Under the pieces are notes generated by a model. It saw only the letters and a list, made by a program, of their open reading frames with translations. It did not search any database and was not told where the DNA came from. A program made the position numbers and the translations under genes. Below are positions 8,143 to 17,486 of a DNA stretch of 64,000 bases, one piece after another. The DNA lies in the NCBI GenBank assembly GCA_938034385.1, contig CALHLC010000008.1, positions 1 through 64,000 on the forward strand, in the 5' to 3' direction. The DNA comes from an uncultured Bacteriovoracaceae bacterium. GTDB taxonomy: Bacteria; Bdellovibrionota; Bacteriovoracia; Bacteriovoracales; Bacteriovoracaceae. Every line of letters starts with the position of its first letter. Position 1 is the stretch's first letter.

Positions 8143-8661
8143 TTATTGTAGGGGAGCTGGAGAGACTATTTCTTGAGTCCAATCTTGTATTGTATCGTTG
8201 ATTGTCTTTTTTTCTAAACAAGGATGATTAGCAATAACTGATGTGTTGGCGATCATGTCTCCATGTCTTTGAAATGATCCAATTTTAGAAACTAGATAGA
8301 CTTCAAAAATCACTACAGCACTAAAGAGGCATATTCCAATGATAGATCCGATAGGGCCACCAAAGAAAAATATTAGAGGAAGTGCTAAAAGAGCATTTCT
8401 AAAGATTGATTGCTTAATATTACAATAATTACCTGTTTCAAGGTCTATAACTCTTAAGCCTACTAGTTTTTTACCTATAGATTGACCTTCAAATAGAGAA
8501 TCAGATAGTACGATATAAAGAATACTAAAGAAGAGTCCCATGATTCCTGTGAATGCTGCAAATAGTAAAGAAATAGCTAAATCAATAGATTTCGCGACTA
8601 GACGGCCTTTCCTGGCCTTCTTTTCTACGCCCTGCCTTAATTGCCTTCTAAAATAGATCAA
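8143..8661 (-). CDS. RDD family membrane protein
   Basis: 172 aa, TTG start behind GAGGAAAAA. The RDD features are visible: Arg then Asp in the first helix region (KGRLVAKSIDLAISLLFAAF), the conserved QSIGKKLVGLRVID strand after the second helix, and a third helix starting RNALLALPLIFFF. Three or four membrane segments are predicted. RDD proteins are integral membrane proteins of mostly unknown role, some linked to ion or compatible-solute transport. It lies 48 bases upstream of polA on the same strand, so the two could be co-transcribed. Confidence 0.75.
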   Translation of the reverse strand: MIYFRRQLRQGVEKKARKGRLVAKSIDLAISLLFAAFTGIMGLFFSILYIVLSDSLFEGQSIGKKLVGLRVIDLETGNYCNIKQSIFRNALLALPLIFFFGGPIGSIIGICLFSAVVIFEVYLVSKIGSFQRHGDMIANTSVIANHPCLEKKTINDTIQDWTQEIVSPAPLQ

Positions 8662-8749
8662 TTTTTCCTCTCAATATCTATACCTTTTTAATAACAGATA
8701 ATATACTTTGATTTCAAGTAAAGTGGTGAAACCATAAAAGGATTACACG

Positions 8750-9073
8750 ATGGCAAATCTATTAGAAGTCGATGAGACGAATTTTGATGAAAAAGTACTC
8801 GGTCATACTGGCCCAGTTTTAGTTGATTTTTGGGCAGAGTGGTGTGGACCATGCAAGGCCTTAGCTCCAGTTTTGGATGAAATCGCTACTGAGATGGGTG
8901 AGAATGCAATGGTGGTAAAGGTTAATGTTGATAATGCTCAAAACCTTGCTCAAAAATATGGAATTAGAGGGATTCCAACTTTAGTCTTCTTTAAGGCAGG
9001 AGAAGTAAAAAGTACTCTTGTGGGAAATCAGCCTAAAGCAGAAATTTTAAAAAGTTTAAAAGAATTAGTTTAA
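8750..9073 (+). CDS. trxA: thioredoxin
   Basis: 107 aa, the usual length. It carries the active site WAEWCGPCKALAP (Cys pair in WCGPC), the buried Asp in VLVDFWAEW, and the cis-Pro in GIRGIPTLVFF. Cytoplasmic dithiol reductant for ribonucleotide reductase, methionine sulfoxide reductase and protein disulfides. Divergent from the RDD gene and followed by a bidirectional hairpin. Confidence 0.95.
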   Translation: MANLLEVDETNFDEKVLGHTGPVLVDFWAEWCGPCKALAPVLDEIATEMGENAMVVKVNVDNAQNLAQKYGIRGIPTLVFFKAGEVKSTLVGNQPKAEILKSLKELV

Positions 9074-9076
9074 AAA

Positions 9077-9108
9077 GTTGGGCAAGAGGATAAGTCTTCT
9101 TGCCCAAC
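9077..9108. terminator. bidirectional terminator between trxA and the Tyr-rich gene
   Basis: An 11-bp stem (GTTGGGCAAGA at 9077 pairing with TCTTGCCCAAC ending 9108) with a 10-base loop. Read on the minus strand it is followed by TTTTTAAA, a good Rho-independent tail for the convergent gene. On the plus strand the tail is weaker. Confidence 0.75.
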
Positions 9109-9136
9109 AATCTTAATTAAAGCTTAGCATAAAATA

Positions 9137-10627
9137 TTAATACTTATCTTCTAAATCTGGGTCAGAGTAATACTGATCTTGAATTGAACCAGTCTCATAC
9201 TCATCATATTCATATTGATAGTAAAGATCATGTTGATCATTATAATAATAATCTTTCTTGTATGATTCAATGTCATACCCTCCAACGTGGCTATCCTCTT
9301 TATTGAATTTATTAAAATAAGCATAATTTGAAGGTCTGAAAGTTTCTGCACATGTGAATCTAAGTGATTTTTCTTCTAGATTTAATTTATTTTTTTCAAT
9401 GGCACAATTATCATAACCTCTATTACAAGTCATTCTAAAGTAAGACTCAACTACTCTCATCGAATATTTATCAATGAGTTGGTAATTACATGTATCGGTT
9501 GAAGAGTATCTATGCATATAACCATTTATAACCCAATATGGATATCCATCAATAAAGTTAAATGTGTTGTTTTGATATTCTTGGTTTGTTTCTTCTACGC
9601 TTCTAAATATCCAATTTATATATAGTGCGTGTTGCATATCATTGTTGTGTAAAAACCTATAATACTGATAGCTAGTCCAGTCATACGAAATCGGTTCATA
9701 GTCATATGAAGTATATGAATATGGAACATGGAATACAGTGATGTAGTGATATCTAGCATGATAATAGTTAAACGGTCGCCAATAATAATAAGTACCGTAG
9801 TGCCTAGCATGGTGATATGGCAGGACACCATGAACAATTCTTTTATAAGGCCTTGTTACATAAGTTTTTCTTGGACGTTTCACAACATTATAAGAATAAT
9901 TTAGTTGATGACGTCTTTTATTGATCTTTTTAACATCTTGTTTTGATTTCGCAACTCGGTTATGACCATAGGTTCTTGTGTTTGAAACACCAGAAACAAC
10001 TTTTTTATTATGAACATTTGATTTCCCAACTCTAACAGTTACTTGCATTGCTTGTCTTCTCTTTGCTTGAGATTTTGATTCCATTTTTACTCGCGAGTTA
10101 TTTATACCTCGTGAAGAATCAGATCTTGAAGTCGAAGAATTAGACCTTGAAGGAACTTTAGAAGTTCTAGGCTTTATAACAACTGGTTCTTCTACTTCAT
10201 AGTCGTCGTAATCATAATCATAGGTCGTGTCAGTCTCTACTTCAGGTTCACTTTGGGCCTGCGATTCCCGCTCTCTTTGAGCATCTGCTTCCCGTTCTCT
10301 TTGAGCGTCTGCTTCCCGTTCTCTTTGAGCATCTGCTTCCCGCTCTCTTTGGGCACTTGCTTCTCGTTTTCTTTGAGCTTCTGCTTCTCGCTCTCTTTGG
10401 GCACTTGCTTCTCGTTTTCTTTGAGCATCAGCTTCTTCACGTTGTCTTTGTGCATTCGCTTCACGTTGTCTTTTCGCAGATTCAGAACTACTTCCTGATG
10501 AACGACTATTTGAAGACCCAGATTTTCGAGAAGAGCTAGACCTTTTTCTCCTCTGAGAAAAAGCTTCAGTGCTAAATAAGAATAAAAATAAAAAAAATAC
10601 AAATACATTGAAACGCCGGTGTTTCAT
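9137..10627 (-). CDS. secreted Tyr-rich protein with Arg/Glu repeats (paralog A)
   Basis: 496 aa, signal peptide MKHRRFNVFVFFLFLFLFSTEAFSQ. Residues about 27-55 are Ser/Arg-rich. Residues about 60-125 are an 8-residue charged repeat (AQRERE-AD type), likely a long helix or coiled coil. A Asp/Tyr cluster and a basic block (SRVKMESKSQAKRRQAM, about 180 on) follow. The C-terminal half is rich in Tyr and His (HHARHYGTYYYWRPF) with four Cys in a compact block (DTCNYQL, MTCNRGY, DNCAIE, FTCAETF), then an acidic Tyr tail. The start is set by AGGAGG seven bases upstream. It is paralogous to the gene at 10874-12301 over about the last 320 residues. I do not recognise the family; probably an exported structural or surface protein. 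Confidence 0.75.
   Translation of the reverse strand: MKHRRFNVFVFFLFLFLFSTEAFSQRRKRSSSSRKSGSSNSRSSGSSSESAKRQREANAQRQREEADAQRKREASAQREREAEAQRKREASAQREREADAQREREADAQREREADAQRERESQAQSEPEVETDTTYDYDYDDYEVEEPVVIKPRTSKVPSRSNSSTSRSDSSRGINNSRVKMESKSQAKRRQAMQVTVRVGKSNVHNKKVVSGVSNTRTYGHNRVAKSKQDVKKINKRRHQLNYSYNVVKRPRKTYVTRPYKRIVHGVLPYHHARHYGTYYYWRPFNYYHARYHYITVFHVPYSYTSYDYEPISYDWTSYQYYRFLHNNDMQHALYINWIFRSVEETNQEYQNNTFNFIDGYPYWVINGYMHRYSSTDTCNYQLIDKYSMRVVESYFRMTCNRGYDNCAIEKNKLNLEEKSLRFTCAETFRPSNYAYFNKFNKEDSHVGGYDIESYKKDYYYNDQHDLYYQYEYDEYETGSIQDQYYSDPDLEDKY
10267..10440 (-). repeat. 24-bp tandem coding repeats (Arg/Glu 8-mer)
   Basis: About seven degenerate 24-bp units, on the plus strand of the type TCTCTTTGAGCATCTGCTTC, encode the 8-residue QRERE repeat of the surrounding gene. 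Copies differ mainly at silent or conservative positions, which suggests expansion by slippage or recombination. Confidence 0.75.
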
Positions 10628-10721
10628 AATTCCTCCTTAGTATTTATATGAATTCTTTTCGATGTGTTTTTAATTAAGAACATTACTAGCGAGTTTTTGT
10701 AGTTATTAGAATAAAATAAAT

Positions 10722-10732
10722 CTAACTGTTAG
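10722..10732. promoter_or_regulatory. palindrome CTAACTGTTAG upstream of paralog A
   Basis: CTAAC-T-GTTAG is a perfect 5-bp inverted repeat with a one-base spacer, 94 bases upstream of the start codon. The same 11 bases, within a shared block TCTAACTGTTAGTAGTTTT, lie 96 bases upstream of paralog B. The conservation of sequence and distance suggests an operator or activator site for both genes. Confidence 0.55.
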
Positions 10733-10825
10733 TAGTTTTTAGAGGTGCGTTTTGACCAATGGAATTACGTTTGTTTTTTTATGTAGATTAAGAAAAATGA
10801 AAGAGCAACTAACATGATAGTTTTG

Positions 10826-10859
10826 TTAAAACGGGCAATAAGAAATACTTATTGCCCGA
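10826..10859 (-). terminator. terminator of paralog B
   Basis: A perfect 11-bp stem (CGGGCAATAAG at 10833-10843 with 10849-10859) and 5-base loop, just downstream of the minus-strand gene ending at 10874. On that strand it is followed by TTTTAAC. Confidence 0.75.
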
Positions 10860-10873
10860 ATTTATAAAGTTAA

Positions 10874-12301
10874 CTAACTTTCTGAAGAATAATATTGATC
10901 TTCAAGAGCTGGATCAGTGTAATACTGATCTTGGACTGAATCTGTATTGTATTCATCATATTCGTAGTCATAGTAAAGATCATATTGATCATCGTAATAA
11001 TAATCTTTTTTATACGACTCAACATTGTATCCACCTAAGTGACTATCTTGTTTATTATATTTGTTAAAATACTCATAGTTTTTAGGTCTAAATGTTTCAG
11101 CACATGTAAATCTAAAAGAATTTTCTAAGTGGTTCAGATTATTTCTTAAATTAGCACAAGTATCATATCCAACACTACAAGATTTATTAAAATAAGATTC
11201 AACAACTCTCATCGAATACTTATCAATAAGTTGATAATTACAAGAGTCAGTTGATGAATATCTATGCATATATCCATTGAAAACCCAGTATGGATAATTA
11301 TCAATAAAGTTAAAAGTATCGTTTTGATAATCACTATTAGTTTCTTCAACACTTCTAAATATCCAGTTCATGTAAAAAGCATTTTGCATATTATTGTTTT
11401 GTAAAAACCTATAATATTCATAGCTATTCCAGTCGTAAGGAATGGGCTCGTAATCATATGATGTGTAGGAATACGGAACATGAAAAGTTGTGATGTAGTG
11501 GTACCTAGCATGATAGTAATGAAATGGTCGCCAATAATAATATGTACCGTAATGTCTAGCATGGTGGTATGGCAGAGTTCCTACAACCACTCTTCTATAT
11601 GGACGAGTTACAAAACATTTCCTTGGACGATTAACAATAGTATTTGAATAGTTTAATCGATGTCTTCTATTGTTGATTTGCTTAACCACTCTTTTAGATC
11701 TGGCAACTCGATTTTGACCGTAGATTCTAGTGTTGGATACACCAGAAACAACTTTTCTGTTGTGAACATTAGACCTGCCAACTCTAGCAGTGACTTGTTT
11801 GGCTTGTCTTTGTTTTGCATTTGCTCTTGATTCAACTTTTACTCTAGAACTAATTCTTTTTGATTGAACTCTTGATCTATTAGTAGATCTTGATGGTTTT
11901 GAAGCCGAAGAGTTTGATCTTGTTTGTGCTCTAGAAGTATTCGAACTTGAGTTAGATCTTGAAGGTCTTGAACTTGAAGCTGACGAACTAGATCTTGATG
12001 GCCTTGAAGTATTTGCACGAGAGCTAGACCTTGAAGGTTTTGAACTCGATGCTGAAGAACTAGATCTCGAAGGTGCTGATCTTGAAGAAGATGAACTTGA
12101 ACTAGATCTTGAAGGTGCTGATCTTGAAGAAGACGAGCTAGAACTAGATCTCGAAGAGCTTGAACTTGAAGAACTTGAACTTGACTTTGAAGAGCCAGAT
12201 CTTGATGAGCTAGATCGTTTTCTTCTTTGGCCAAAAGTTTCTAGCGAAAAAATAGCTAGAAATAAAAATAACATAAAACGATACGTCGAATGTCGCCGCA
12301 T
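10874..12301 (-). CDS. secreted Tyr-rich protein with Ser/Arg-rich N-terminus (paralog B)
   Basis: 475 aa from the ATG at 12301, chosen because AGGAGG lies seven bases upstream; an in-frame start 15 codons earlier has no such site. The signal peptide (MRRHSTYRFMLFLFLAIFSLETFGQ) is followed by about 110 residues of Ser/Arg/Pro low complexity (repeats of RSSSSASSS and SRPSRS type). From about residue 150 it closely follows paralog A: KVVSGVSNTRIYGQNRVA, HHARHYGTYYYWRPF, the four-Cys block and an acidic Tyr-rich tail. The two genes are tandem, same strand, each with its own terminator and upstream palindrome, so they are a local duplication whose N-terminal low-complexity segments have been replaced or have diverged fast. 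Function unknown; exported. Confidence 0.75.
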   Translation of the reverse strand: MRRHSTYRFMLFLFLAIFSLETFGQRRKRSSSSRSGSSKSSSSSSSSSSSRSSSSSSSSRSAPSRSSSSSSSSRSAPSRSSSSASSSKPSRSSSRANTSRPSRSSSSASSSRPSRSNSSSNTSRAQTRSNSSASKPSRSTNRSRVQSKRISSRVKVESRANAKQRQAKQVTARVGRSNVHNRKVVSGVSNTRIYGQNRVARSKRVVKQINNRRHRLNYSNTIVNRPRKCFVTRPYRRVVVGTLPYHHARHYGTYYYWRPFHYYHARYHYITTFHVPYSYTSYDYEPIPYDWNSYEYYRFLQNNNMQNAFYMNWIFRSVEETNSDYQNDTFNFIDNYPYWVFNGYMHRYSSTDSCNYQLIDKYSMRVVESYFNKSCSVGYDTCANLRNNLNHLENSFRFTCAETFRPKNYEYFNKYNKQDSHLGGYNVESYKKDYYYDDQYDLYYDYEYDEYNTDSVQDQYYTDPALEDQYYSSES

Positions 12302-12397
12302 TGATTCCTCCTTTGTAATGTGAATTAATTTCCTAGAAAAACACAAGTGTAATGAGTCTTTTTATCTTATTAAATAAGCTTGATAAATTATAAAGTT

Positions 12398-12408
12398 CTA
12401 ACTGTTAG
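12398..12408. promoter_or_regulatory. palindrome CTAACTGTTAG upstream of paralog B
   Basis: An identical copy of the 11-base inverted repeat at 10722, here 96 bases upstream of the chosen start. The flanking TAGTAGTTTT is also shared. On the coding strand both sites read CTACTAACAGTTAGA. Confidence 0.55.
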
Positions 12409-12530
12409 TAGTTTTGAGAGAGTCACTTTGCACTTGCTAAATTGAATTTAAAGACCTTTCGCTAATTAAAAAAACATTAGAGAATAAAAAATAACATTTA
12501 GAAATTCAGTGGTGTCACTTTGAAGAGTGC

Positions 12531-12839
12531 CTATGCCACTTTTGATATTTGATTTTTCGATTCGGTGTCATCTTGTCTTGTTTTAATTAATTTTAACTTC
12601 TTTCTTCTGAATCTCCATTGTCTTTGCAGACAATAAACTGAAACGAAGATAACCAATCCAAGAAAGAAGTTATTATTTAGAGTAACTTGTTCTCGTAATA
12701 AGGAGTAGAAAAAATCTTTTTCTTGAATCCTCAAAGTTTCACCATATATATTAAATCTGAAGAAGAGGTATAGATTAAAACCAAAAGAAGCTGTTGCTAT
12801 AAAAAGTGAAAATAGAAAAATTTTTAATGGGTTAAACAA
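12531..12839 (-). CDS. small two-helix membrane protein
   Basis: 102 aa, TTG start behind AGGAG (TAGGAGAAGAG-TTG). Two hydrophobic segments are visible: about 5-28 (LKIFLFSLFIATASFGFNLYLFF) and about 55-73 (NNFFLGLVIFVSVYCL). A strongly basic cytoplasmic tail (RQWRFRRKKLKLIKTR) ends the protein. No family recognised. The insertion sequence begins 72 bases upstream of the start codon, so the native promoter may have been displaced. Confidence 0.55.
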   Translation of the reverse strand: MFNPLKIFLFSLFIATASFGFNLYLFFRFNIYGETLRIQEKDFFYSLLREQVTLNNNFFLGLVIFVSVYCLQRQWRFRRKKLKLIKTRQDDTESKNQISKVA

Positions 12840-12895
12840 CTCTTCTCCTATGATTATCTGACAGGGATTATTCGGAAAAAGACTGAAAAACTTAA

Positions 12896-12911
12896 GTACT
12901 TTAATAGAGTG
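12896..12911. repeat. target-site duplication, left copy (16 bp)
   Basis: GTACTTTAATAGAGTG directly abuts the left end of the insertion sequence and is repeated exactly at 14223-14238. Long target duplications are known for the IS1202-type group. Confidence 0.9.
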
Positions 12912-12937
12912 TGTGGTTTCCTCGCGATAATGTCCTA
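12912..12937 (+). repeat. IS left terminal inverted repeat
   Basis: 26 bp starting TGTGGTTTCC and ending AATGTCCTA, matching the inverted right end at 23 of 26 positions. Confidence 0.85.
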
Positions 12938-13014
12938 TTCTTAATTCCCAGCGATTATGTCATAAACAATTTACTCAACTAATTCTTGTATCATTGTTAT
13001 ATCAAGGAGTTGAG

Positions 13015-14157
13015 ATGGGAGAAATCGTCATGAGTAAAAAAGATCAAAAAATGTATGATCAAGCTATTCAAGTAATCTGTAAAAGGTTAAGTATCCAGGA
13101 ATTTGCTGAACTCAATTCACTATCATACAGACAATCTCAAAGAATTATTAAAAAAGTAAAAAGCAAAGGTATGAAAGGAGTTAAACACGGAAACCTGGGA
13201 AAAATTCCTCATAACAAAACACCTAGTGAGTTAGAACTAGATATTTTAAGCCTCCTAAAGGGAAAGTACTATGACTTCAATCTCACCCACTTCAAAGAAA
13301 TGATCCACGTACATGAAGGAATTGAGATAGGAAAAAATGTCATTCATCGAATTGCAAAAACTAATGGATTAATTAAAAGACCTAAGAGAAGGTTGAAAAA
13401 GAAAGTTCATAAACTACGTCCTCGTATGCCACAAGAAGGCATGCTGATTCAGTTTGATGGATCACAACATGTTTGGTTCGGAGGTTTTGAATCAGATCTT
13501 ATTGCAGGAATTGACGATGCTACTGGCAAGGTTCTTGGAGCTGAGTTTTTTATAGGAGAAACTAGTTTAAATTGTATGAAAGTGATGAAAGAAATTATCC
13601 AAGCTCATGGAGTTCCTCATGCGTTTTACTTAGATAAGGCCGGAGCCTTTGGTAAAGATGATCGCGATAAGTCATCGACTCAGATAGGAAGAGCTCTTAC
13701 ATCAATTGGAAGTGATATTATTCTTGCTAACTCACCTCAGGCGAAAGGTAAGATTGAGAGGCTTTGGGATACTCTTCAAGATCGGTTAATCGCAGAGCTT
13801 AGGTTTTATGAAATCAAAACAGTTCCATCAGCAAATAAGTTTTTGAGAGAAGATTTTCTTCCACGTTTTAATCAAAACTTTTCTTACCCAGCGAGAAGCT
13901 CTCAAAAGGCTTACCTCGAGTGTATTGATAATTTAGATAATATCTTTTGTATGAAGGAGAATCGGAAAATAACAACTGGAAATACTTTTAGCTGGAACTC
14001 TCAAGTCTACATCATACAAGGAGAGCGAAACTATCGCTTTAGGACAATCAATATTAATACTCATTATGATGGACATGTTAGCTTCGACATCTTAGGTAAA
14101 GCGGTTGAAGTAAAGGCATATAAATCTACTCCACGAAACTTAGGTTTAGCGGCATAA
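13015..14157 (+). CDS. IS transposase, integrase-core DDE (IS1202/ISNCY type)
   Basis: 380 aa from the ATG at 13015, chosen because AAGGAG lies six bases upstream; an upstream in-frame TTG at 12994 has no site. An N-terminal helix-turn-helix (IQEFAELNSLSYRQSQRIIKKV) and a second DNA-binding segment precede an rve-type catalytic core. The presumed DDE residues are Asp in LIQFDGSQH, Asp in FYLDKAGAF and Glu in SPQAKGKIERLWDTLQ. The QFDGS, IDDATGKVLGA and NSPQAKGKIER blocks are characteristic of the ISNCY/IS1202 group. The reading frame is uninterrupted, so the element may be active. Confidence 0.9.
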   Translation: MGEIVMSKKDQKMYDQAIQVICKRLSIQEFAELNSLSYRQSQRIIKKVKSKGMKGVKHGNLGKIPHNKTPSELELDILSLLKGKYYDFNLTHFKEMIHVHEGIEIGKNVIHRIAKTNGLIKRPKRRLKKKVHKLRPRMPQEGMLIQFDGSQHVWFGGFESDLIAGIDDATGKVLGAEFFIGETSLNCMKVMKEIIQAHGVPHAFYLDKAGAFGKDDRDKSSTQIGRALTSIGSDIILANSPQAKGKIERLWDTLQDRLIAELRFYEIKTVPSANKFLREDFLPRFNQNFSYPARSSQKAYLECIDNLDNIFCMKENRKITTGNTFSWNSQVYIIQGERNYRFRTININTHYDGHVSFDILGKAVEVKAYKSTPRNLGLAA

Positions 14158-15725: not shown

Positions 15726-17486
15726 TTAGTAACGATCTCTTAACTTCTCAGGAGTAAATTCATTATTTAAGTCAACGACAAGTTTTTTGAATTCTTCTAG
15801 AGAGTAATCAGTCGTACTTTGTTCTCCATACTTTCGAACACTAATTTGATCAGAGTTCATTTCGTTATCACCTATAACAATCATAAATGGAGTTTTTGAT
15901 TTTTGAATCTCACGTGTTTTCTTGCCAAGGGACTCATTTCTTTTGTCTATACTAACTCTTGCTCCAATTTTTTTAAGCTCAGAGCATAAATTATCACAAA
16001 ATTTTTCATGGCTTTCTAAATTAACAGGAACAATTTTAATTTGCTCTGGCGTTAACCAAAATGGAAAAACTCCAGCACAATGCTCCGTATAGACACCAAT
16101 AAACCGCTCGAGAGACCCAAGTAGGGCCCTGTGAATAACGACAGGTCTTTTATCTTGTCCGTCAGAGTCAGTATATTTTAAATCAAATCTTTCAGGTAAT
16201 AAGAAGTCTAGTTGAATAGTCCCAAGTTGATGATATCTTTTTAGTGCATCAGCTATTTCTATATCAATCTTTGGTCCATAAAAAGCACCGTCCCCTTCTT
16301 TGATAACAAATTCGTGACCTGAGTTTTCAAGAGACTTTCTAAGAGCGTCCTCAGCTTGGTCCCAAGTTGCATCATCTCCCATCTTTTTATCAGGCCTTGT
16401 AGAGAGATTTACTTTTATATCTGTAAATCCCATATGCTCATAACAGATAAAAAACATTTCCATAAGTTTTTGAATTTCATCTTGAATGCCTTCTGGTTGG
16501 ATAAATATATGAGCATCATCTTGGCAAAAAGTTCGAACCCTTGTTAACCCAGAAACAGCTCCAGATCTTTCATATCTATGAAGTCTACCAAAGTCAGCAT
16601 ATCTCATCGGAAGATCCCGGTAGCTATACTTGTAATGGTTAAACATCAACATATGACATGGGCAATTCATTGGCTTAAGTGCAAATTCACGATCATCGAT
16701 TGGAGTGAAGTACATGTTCTCTTTGTAGTTTTCGTAATGGCCACTGGTATGCCATAGATTCACATCTAATACTTGTGGAGTAATAACTTCATCGTAATCA
16801 TACTTAGTATAAATATTTCTCATGAAATCAACTAATCTATTATAGATGAAGGCACCTTTGGGCATAAAAAATGGACTGGCCGGCGAAACTTCTTCAAAGT
16901 GAAAAAGCTTGAGATCTTTTCCAATCTTTCTATGATCACGCTTTTTCGCTTCTTCTAGAAAGTGAAGATGTTCTTTCAATTCTTCTTTTGATTTAAAGCA
17001 AGCGGCATAAACTCTTTGAAGTACTGGTCTTTTCTCATCTCCGCGCCAATAAGCTCCGGTAGTACTTAATATCTTAAAACTAAAAGGGATTTGGCCAGTA
17101 TGCTCTACATGTGGACCACGACAAAGGTCAAAAAAGTTTTCACCTTGAGTGTAGTAAGTAATTTCCTCACCCTCAGGTAAATCTTTTATCAACTCAAGCT
17201 TTAAATCTTGTTTTTCTTTTTCAAATTTCTTTAAAGCATCTTCTCTTGAAATTACATGTCTCTCTATTGGGAGTTTTGCTTTAATTATTTTTTGCATTCT
17301 TTTTTGAATTTCTTTTAAATGCGCATCTGTGATTCTAGTTTGCATATCGATGTCATAATAAAATCCATGTTCTATTACTGGACCTATTCCTAACTTAACG
17401 TCTTCATCAGGAAACATTTCGGTTATTGCTTGGGCCATTATATGAGCAGCAGAATGACGAATTGTGTCTAAGGGTTGTTCTTGCAT
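15726..17486 (-). CDS. thrS: threonyl-tRNA synthetase lacking the N-terminal TGS domain
   Basis: 586 aa against about 640 in E. coli. The protein starts directly in the editing domain (IRHSAAHIMAQA has the HxxxH; FFDLCRGPHVEH has the Cys and His), so the TGS domain of about 60 residues is missing. The class II catalytic domain carries the zinc ligands (PMNCPCHM, the His in SYRDLPMRYADFGRLHR and VIHRALLGSLERFIG). A C-terminal anticodon-binding domain follows. GGAGAAAAA seven bases upstream supports this start, so the short form seems real. Charges tRNA-Thr and edits Ser-tRNA-Thr. No T-box leader is visible upstream. Confidence 0.93.
   Translation of the reverse strand: MQEQPLDTIRHSAAHIMAQAITEMFPDEDVKLGIGPVIEHGFYYDIDMQTRITDAHLKEIQKRMQKIIKAKLPIERHVISREDALKKFEKEKQDLKLELIKDLPEGEEITYYTQGENFFDLCRGPHVEHTGQIPFSFKILSTTGAYWRGDEKRPVLQRVYAACFKSKEELKEHLHFLEEAKKRDHRKIGKDLKLFHFEEVSPASPFFMPKGAFIYNRLVDFMRNIYTKYDYDEVITPQVLDVNLWHTSGHYENYKENMYFTPIDDREFALKPMNCPCHMLMFNHYKYSYRDLPMRYADFGRLHRYERSGAVSGLTRVRTFCQDDAHIFIQPEGIQDEIQKLMEMFFICYEHMGFTDIKVNLSTRPDKKMGDDATWDQAEDALRKSLENSGHEFVIKEGDGAFYGPKIDIEIADALKRYHQLGTIQLDFLLPERFDLKYTDSDGQDKRPVVIHRALLGSLERFIGVYTEHCAGVFPFWLTPEQIKIVPVNLESHEKFCDNLCSELKKIGARVSIDKRNESLGKKTREIQKSKTPFMIVIGDNEMNSDQISVRKYGEQSTTDYSLEEFKKLVVDLNNEFTPEKLRDRY

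Follow-up and report, generated by a model that had tools for sequence, protein, structure and literature searches.

A tandem pair of predicted exported four-Cys proteins from Bacteriovoracaceae with variable low-complexity arms

Genes A and B, two adjacent paralogs of an uncultured Bacteriovoracaceae bacterium (GCA_938034385.1), belong to a family of proteins in which a repeat arm of variable length, nearly always net-basic, is joined to a fixed module composed of a Tyr/Arg/His-rich linker, a 97-residue four-Cys domain and, usually, a Tyr-rich acidic tail. This arm is free to change in sequence but mostly retains its charge and low complexity. Based on their build, their charge pattern and the constraint that acts on them, we suggest with a probability of roughly one-half that A and B are order-specific exported structural proteins of an envelope or matrix in which the arm would serve as a replaceable charged spacer. 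Judged by its sequence, gene A is a mosaic that combines a B-type gene with a 5′ segment of the type found in a third paralog, C.

Genes A and B at the trxA locus

The window, i.e., the whole stretch of 64,000 nt analyzed here, is contig C8 of a genome of 2.67 Mb in 66 contigs. Gene A (9137..10627, 496 aa) and gene B (10874..12301, 475 aa counted from the ATG at 12301) are encoded in head-to-tail order on the minus strand, with trxA on one side and a small gene (12531-12839) on the other, in a neighborhood of trxA, polA, ddl and thrS (named by eye from the sequence). The earlier note had described two adjacent genes with collinear cores of ca. 320 residues, and we indeed find both open reading frames in place, with cores of 317 aa in A (9140..10090, minus strand) and 322 aa in B (10877..11842, minus strand) that are collinear and 77% identical across 320 residues. 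Both include the four-Cys domain of 97 aa (9344..9634 in A and 11096..11386 in B, minus strand). The core was likewise correctly described as Tyr-rich with four conserved Cys, given a tyrosine content of 14.8% in A and 14.9% in B and four Cys common to both (residues 380, 401, 408 and 426 of A), to which B adds a fifth at residue 229. The dN/dS of the cores (0.139/1.454, with dS near saturation) indicates that both genes are kept by selection and speaks against either being a pseudogene.

Upstream of its core, A comprises a predicted signal peptide with a T8 run (10559..10627), a Ser/Arg leader (10481..10558), a QRE block of 24-nt repeats that is kin to the arm of paralog C (residues 50-124; 10256..10480), an acidic Tyr/Asp linker, QSEPEVETDTTYDYDYDDYEVEEP (10184..10255), and a B-type Ser/Arg remnant adjoining the core (10091..10162), all on the minus strand; B carries a Ser/Arg arm of 128 aa (11843..12226, minus strand). 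All signal peptide calls rest on hydrophobicity rather than SignalP. The tandem repeats of the arms are real at the DNA level, with 8.6 copies of 24 nt in A and overlapping periods of 36, 42 and 72 nt in B, and net charge is +0.21 per residue for the B arm and nearly neutral (+0.013) for the QRE block of A. The two arms had been called wholly different, but the first ca. 29 residues and the QRRKRSSSSR leader are similar, and A retains the Ser/Arg remnant. The proposal of a modular exported protein with a fixed core module and a variable arm stands, with export predicted from the signal peptide. No lipobox, LPXTG-like anchor or transmembrane helix was noticed on informal inspection of A and B.

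A terminator of its own had been assigned to each gene, and terminator-like stem-loops indeed lie 3′ of both, one between A and trxA (9077..9108, no strand assigned; −21.5 kcal/mol for the stretch folded) and one behind B (10832..10858, minus strand; −18.6 kcal/mol for the stretch folded), but only the stem-loop at 9077-9108 passed a stricter scan, and this one is common to A and the convergent trxA. Past the small gene upstream of B, the window holds an ISNCY-family transposase gene (12994-14157; NCBIfam NF033594, 333 bits) without a match at this locus in the congeners G001, G002 and G003. We also note a threonyl-tRNA synthetase-like open reading frame (15726-17486, named by eye) of 586 aa, with equal length in L001; the usual length of this enzyme is about 640 residues, and the N-terminal TGS domain is perhaps missing.

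A four-Cys domain family of the order

Neither the core nor the domain matched Pfam, NCBIfam or PHROGs at curated score, with best hits at chance level, and a profile search of PDB sequences with an E limit of 5 gave no match, so that the core is in no recognized family, as the earlier note had it. A description of the family was not evident in the literature searched, with subscription papers and preprints outside its scope. By its core, the closest named relative is found in a metagenome-assembled Bacteriovoracaceae genome (L001), and a search of the own genome returned four copies, i.e., A, B, C (contig C19, 52% to B) and D (contig C62, 37%). We built a domain profile of 97 positions from 35 sequences (mean column identity 50%), among which a W, an R-Y motif, the four C, a D and an E are invariant; A and B have all of these within a 97-residue domain and thus fall within the definition of the family. 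The profile found 100 matches across 74 of the 129 genomes available for the order. It found none in the remaining 239 of the 368 phylum genomes searched, for which at most 13 candidates per genome were scored and a weak member may have been missed. AlphaFold2 models from three-row alignments, drawn from the window and L001 sequences only, were of low confidence, with a pLDDT of 32.0 for the core and 36.6 for the domain region. An origin as horizontal cassette or from phages was rejected, as plasmid and phage searches gave no match and none of 16 pattern matches in viral contigs was confirmed.

Members usually consist of a signal peptide, a basic arm, the Tyr/Arg/His-rich linker, the domain and an acidic Tyr tail. 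Arms span 51 to 407 residues among the 75 members with an arm of at least 40 residues, 68 of which are net-positive (>0.05 per residue; family median +0.15) and 7 near neutral. Tails of at least 20 residues are negative in 55 of 65 members and neutral or positive in 8 of 65, chiefly in a subfamily with longer C-terminus. These charge counts omit L002 (a second copy of A), L116 (a split gene), L125 (a weak and partial entry) and arms below 40 residues, and B was computed separately. Arm chemistry is varied, including Ser/Arg, Pro/Arg/Asn, Gly/Arg/Asn and Lys/Arg/Asp types with Arg common throughout, though the arm boundary of this survey is crude (60 residues back from the domain) and for A, B and C includes part of the conserved core. 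One subfamily (L020, L027, L033, L043, L044, L099, L110 and L122) has Ser-rich arms, a Lys-rich C-terminal extension of ca. 120 residues and further Cys; its member L027 has no Pfam match.

Across 100 neighborhood entries, in which A and L116 each count twice, a VanY carboxypeptidase gene lies upstream and co-directional in 24 (same orientation in 24/24; 15 of the 68 entries with at least 900 nt of upstream sequence) and a 4HBT thioesterase gene lies downstream and convergent on the other strand in 32 (32/32). Both are present in 22, and about a third of the entries in other genera have either. The arrangement VanY, family gene, convergent 4HBT was seen, with either neighbor or both present, at L038:5284-10058 and in 33 other entries from many genera, with constant orientation. 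This locus is presumably ancestral; D sits there and A, B and C do not, which suggests that these three are derived copies. The trxA locus holds a single family gene in each of the three congeners G001, G002 and G003 (the G001 contig ends just beyond the gene).

A VWA gene lies downstream of paralog C and matches the model of Bdellovibrio MIDAS adhesins weakly and in part (E 6e-11, 42 bits, cut-off 700). C and this gene form an island (L037:5501-9241) absent from the same site in G003, where neither C nor the VWA gene left a trace between DedA and an HI0933-like gene (names by eye); a G003 relative of the VWA gene (71%) lies on another contig. In its signal peptide (L004:437-520, contig C19), C has a T7 run instead of the T8 run of A and the G003 gene, which sets its start codon and arm in different frames. 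This could equally reflect a hypermutable switch, a broken gene or a sequencing error.

Origin and age of the arm of gene A

The core and the arm of A point to different paralogs. The core tree unites A, B and G3_B with support of 99/99 and places C outside the trxA-locus clade at 90/92. Residues 50-140 of A, on the other hand, align to C with a score of 239 against a mean of 90 for composition-keeping shuffles (z = 16.0, reached by 0/300), and to B with a score of just 54 (z = 0.8, reached by 75/300). A regex search for QRE/KRQR-type arms, which covered 82 distinct members plus B, found them in A and C only (3/84 entries, with A counted twice). The likeness continues into the 5′ leader, in which an 18-base block, ACATCGAAAAGAATTCAT (10648..10665, minus strand), is identical in A and C only; it lies 38 nt ahead of A and 39 nt ahead of C, is absent ahead of B and G3_B, and has no other exact site genome-wide (one further site has 2 mismatches).

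The C-type tract of A thus spans the sequence between the 5′ leader and the QRE arm, both included, and is flanked by B-type sequence on both sides. From residue ca. 156 onward, A continues with the Ser/Arg remnant and then the core, and on the other side an element at −105, AACTACTAACAGTTAG, occurs upstream of A (10722..10737, minus strand) and of B (12398..12413, minus strand) within a 35-nt block ca. 105 nt ahead of both starts. The 16-mer has no further site in the genome with up to 1 mismatch. Its 11-base palindromic center also lies upstream of the G003 gene and one G001 paralog, a degenerate form precedes C and D, and exact copies occur in just 3 of 83 upstream regions of a wider set without B, which marks it as a genus-level feature. 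The signal peptide is a weak witness for the mosaic because those of G1_B and C are equally close to that of A.

Core tree, arm score, leader block and Ser/Arg remnant together bear out the idea that an arm was exchanged between paralogs. That A and C instead gained their QRE arms separately, by repeat expansion of a Ser/Arg leader, is very unlikely. Both blocks do consist of 24-nt repeats, low-complexity charged helices can converge, and residues 50-127 of A show a compositional match to TolA in NCBIfam (E 3.4e-4, 20 bits, cut-off 59), but the likeness of A and C persists against composition-keeping shuffles (z = 16) and extends beyond the repeats to 18 exact leader bases and a collinear signal and leader, though the likeness of the signal is in part ancestral, as G1_B scores equally. 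With regard to direction, we favor that a C-type tract moved into A, since one tract suffices. An old C-type copy with core and promoter overwritten by B would yield the same mosaic, and gene conversion between tandem copies is common; we consider this course unlikely, as the upstream element and the core would then have to be two separate B-type tracts, where otherwise a single C-type tract is enough, and as Ser/Arg remnants adjoin the block on the side that faces the core.

From the sequences at hand, the exchange is real, but old and single. The arms of A and C are ca. 53% identical in protein and ca. 70% in DNA, so that their exchange is not recent. With one genome per species, the 123 member pairs that are at least 70% identical in the domain have a median domain identity of 78% and a median arm identity of 45%, and the closest species pairs (domain/arm identity of 99/99, 98/86 and 93/83%) keep near-identical arms, which speaks for arms that drift fast and are not switched. 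At a single locus, the arm length of the A/B-type gene has drifted between 318 and 220 residues (by one arm definition); the arm of the G002 gene at the trxA locus reads N and was left out. In the 66 contigs of the genome, the KRQR unit occurs only at A and C and the B arm DNA only at B, leaving no silent cassette for either arm, and no inverted repeats were found at 8600-13200. As arms also track relatedness, we rejected programmed switching by a phase- or antigen-variable cassette system, and the rapid exchange or slippage of the arm that the earlier note had envisaged finds no support.

Possible functions and systems of similar build

If A and B are structural proteins of envelope or matrix, the four-Cys domain would form two disulfides after export, and the oppositely charged arm and tail may tether these proteins either to one another or to anionic polymers of the envelope, with tyrosines contributing to the packing or cross-linking of the layer. 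The arm would be a replaceable spacer of which slippage alters the length and which recombination between paralogs could swap without breaking function. A and B would probably supply two such spacers, a flexible basic Ser/Arg arm and a nearly neutral, probably helical QRE arm.

Alternatively, family members could be periplasmic peptidoglycan-associated factors that work with the upstream VanY-type carboxypeptidase and thread or bind the anionic wall with their basic arm. The constant arrangement with VanY (upstream and on the same strand in 24/24) and 4HBT (downstream and on the opposite strand in 32/32), which occur together in 22/100 entries, fits this doubtful reading, but most members, including A, B and C, are located elsewhere, a common location is no proof of common work, and no wall-binding domain was matched. 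A role as prey-contact adhesins, with the four-Cys domain binding a ligand on prey or in the environment and the arm forming a stalk that sets its reach, seems distinctly unlikely. The order is named for predators, the VWA gene behind C weakly and partially matches the MIDAS adhesin model, and a second member, in G002, is also near a VWA gene; yet such neighbors occur at only 2 member sites in 140 loci, the inspection of A and B (not systematic) noticed no anchor, and the host is a predator only putatively. The likelihoods given to the structural, wall-associated and adhesin readings are not exclusive, as these overlap. A resting-cyst coat was rejected after a literature search gave nothing usable.

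Among known systems, the structural reading finds its closest likeness in the CotG proteins of the spore coat. CotG genes sit in a cotH-cotB-cotG neighborhood, whereas A and B are flanked by trxA, polA, ddl and thrS, and endospores are not known from the order. According to PMC9765600, CotG and CotG-like proteins of Bacillus are modular with central positive tandem repeats that act as spacers, these repeats vary in sequence between species with modular structure and mostly charge kept, and deletion of the charged repeats was contrasted with their substitution by differently charged ones. A and B share the modular build with tandem repeats that would likewise act as spacers, and positive repeats are seen in the B arm (+0.21) and the family median (+0.15) but hardly in the QRE block of A (+0.013). 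The likeness would be in working only, without sequence homology (no family match), and unlike CotG, A and B have a signal peptide, the four-Cys domain and the acidic Tyr tail. The QRE block of A also resembles the charged Ala/Glu/Lys repeats of the TolA helical domain (NCBIfam TIGR02794, E 3.4e-4), but the match is confined to the arm and scores 20 bits against a curated cut-off of 59.45, and the membrane anchor and C-terminal domain of TolA have no match in A. A gene broadly of the type of the Bdellovibrio MIDAS adhesins covered in PMC11003981 adjoins paralog C; unlike these adhesins, A and B gave no match to a VWA or MIDAS domain.

More tentatively, and rather unlikely as a whole, the order might share a structural layer built from one disulfide module and interchangeable charged spacers, with paralogs trading whole arms together with leader and signal. 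If true, arm trading would re-tune the reach and charge of the envelope, and non-sporing bacteria would have a modular coat convergent with CotG. With members in over half of the order's genomes (74/129) and a place outside Pfam, NCBIfam, PHROGs and PDB sequence space as searched, the four-Cys family, which the rest of the phylum sample lacked in these searches, is a candidate for envelope biology particular to this group, which is known for predation. The set of A, B and C is a natural experiment on whether low-complexity arms are selected for their sequence or only for length and charge.
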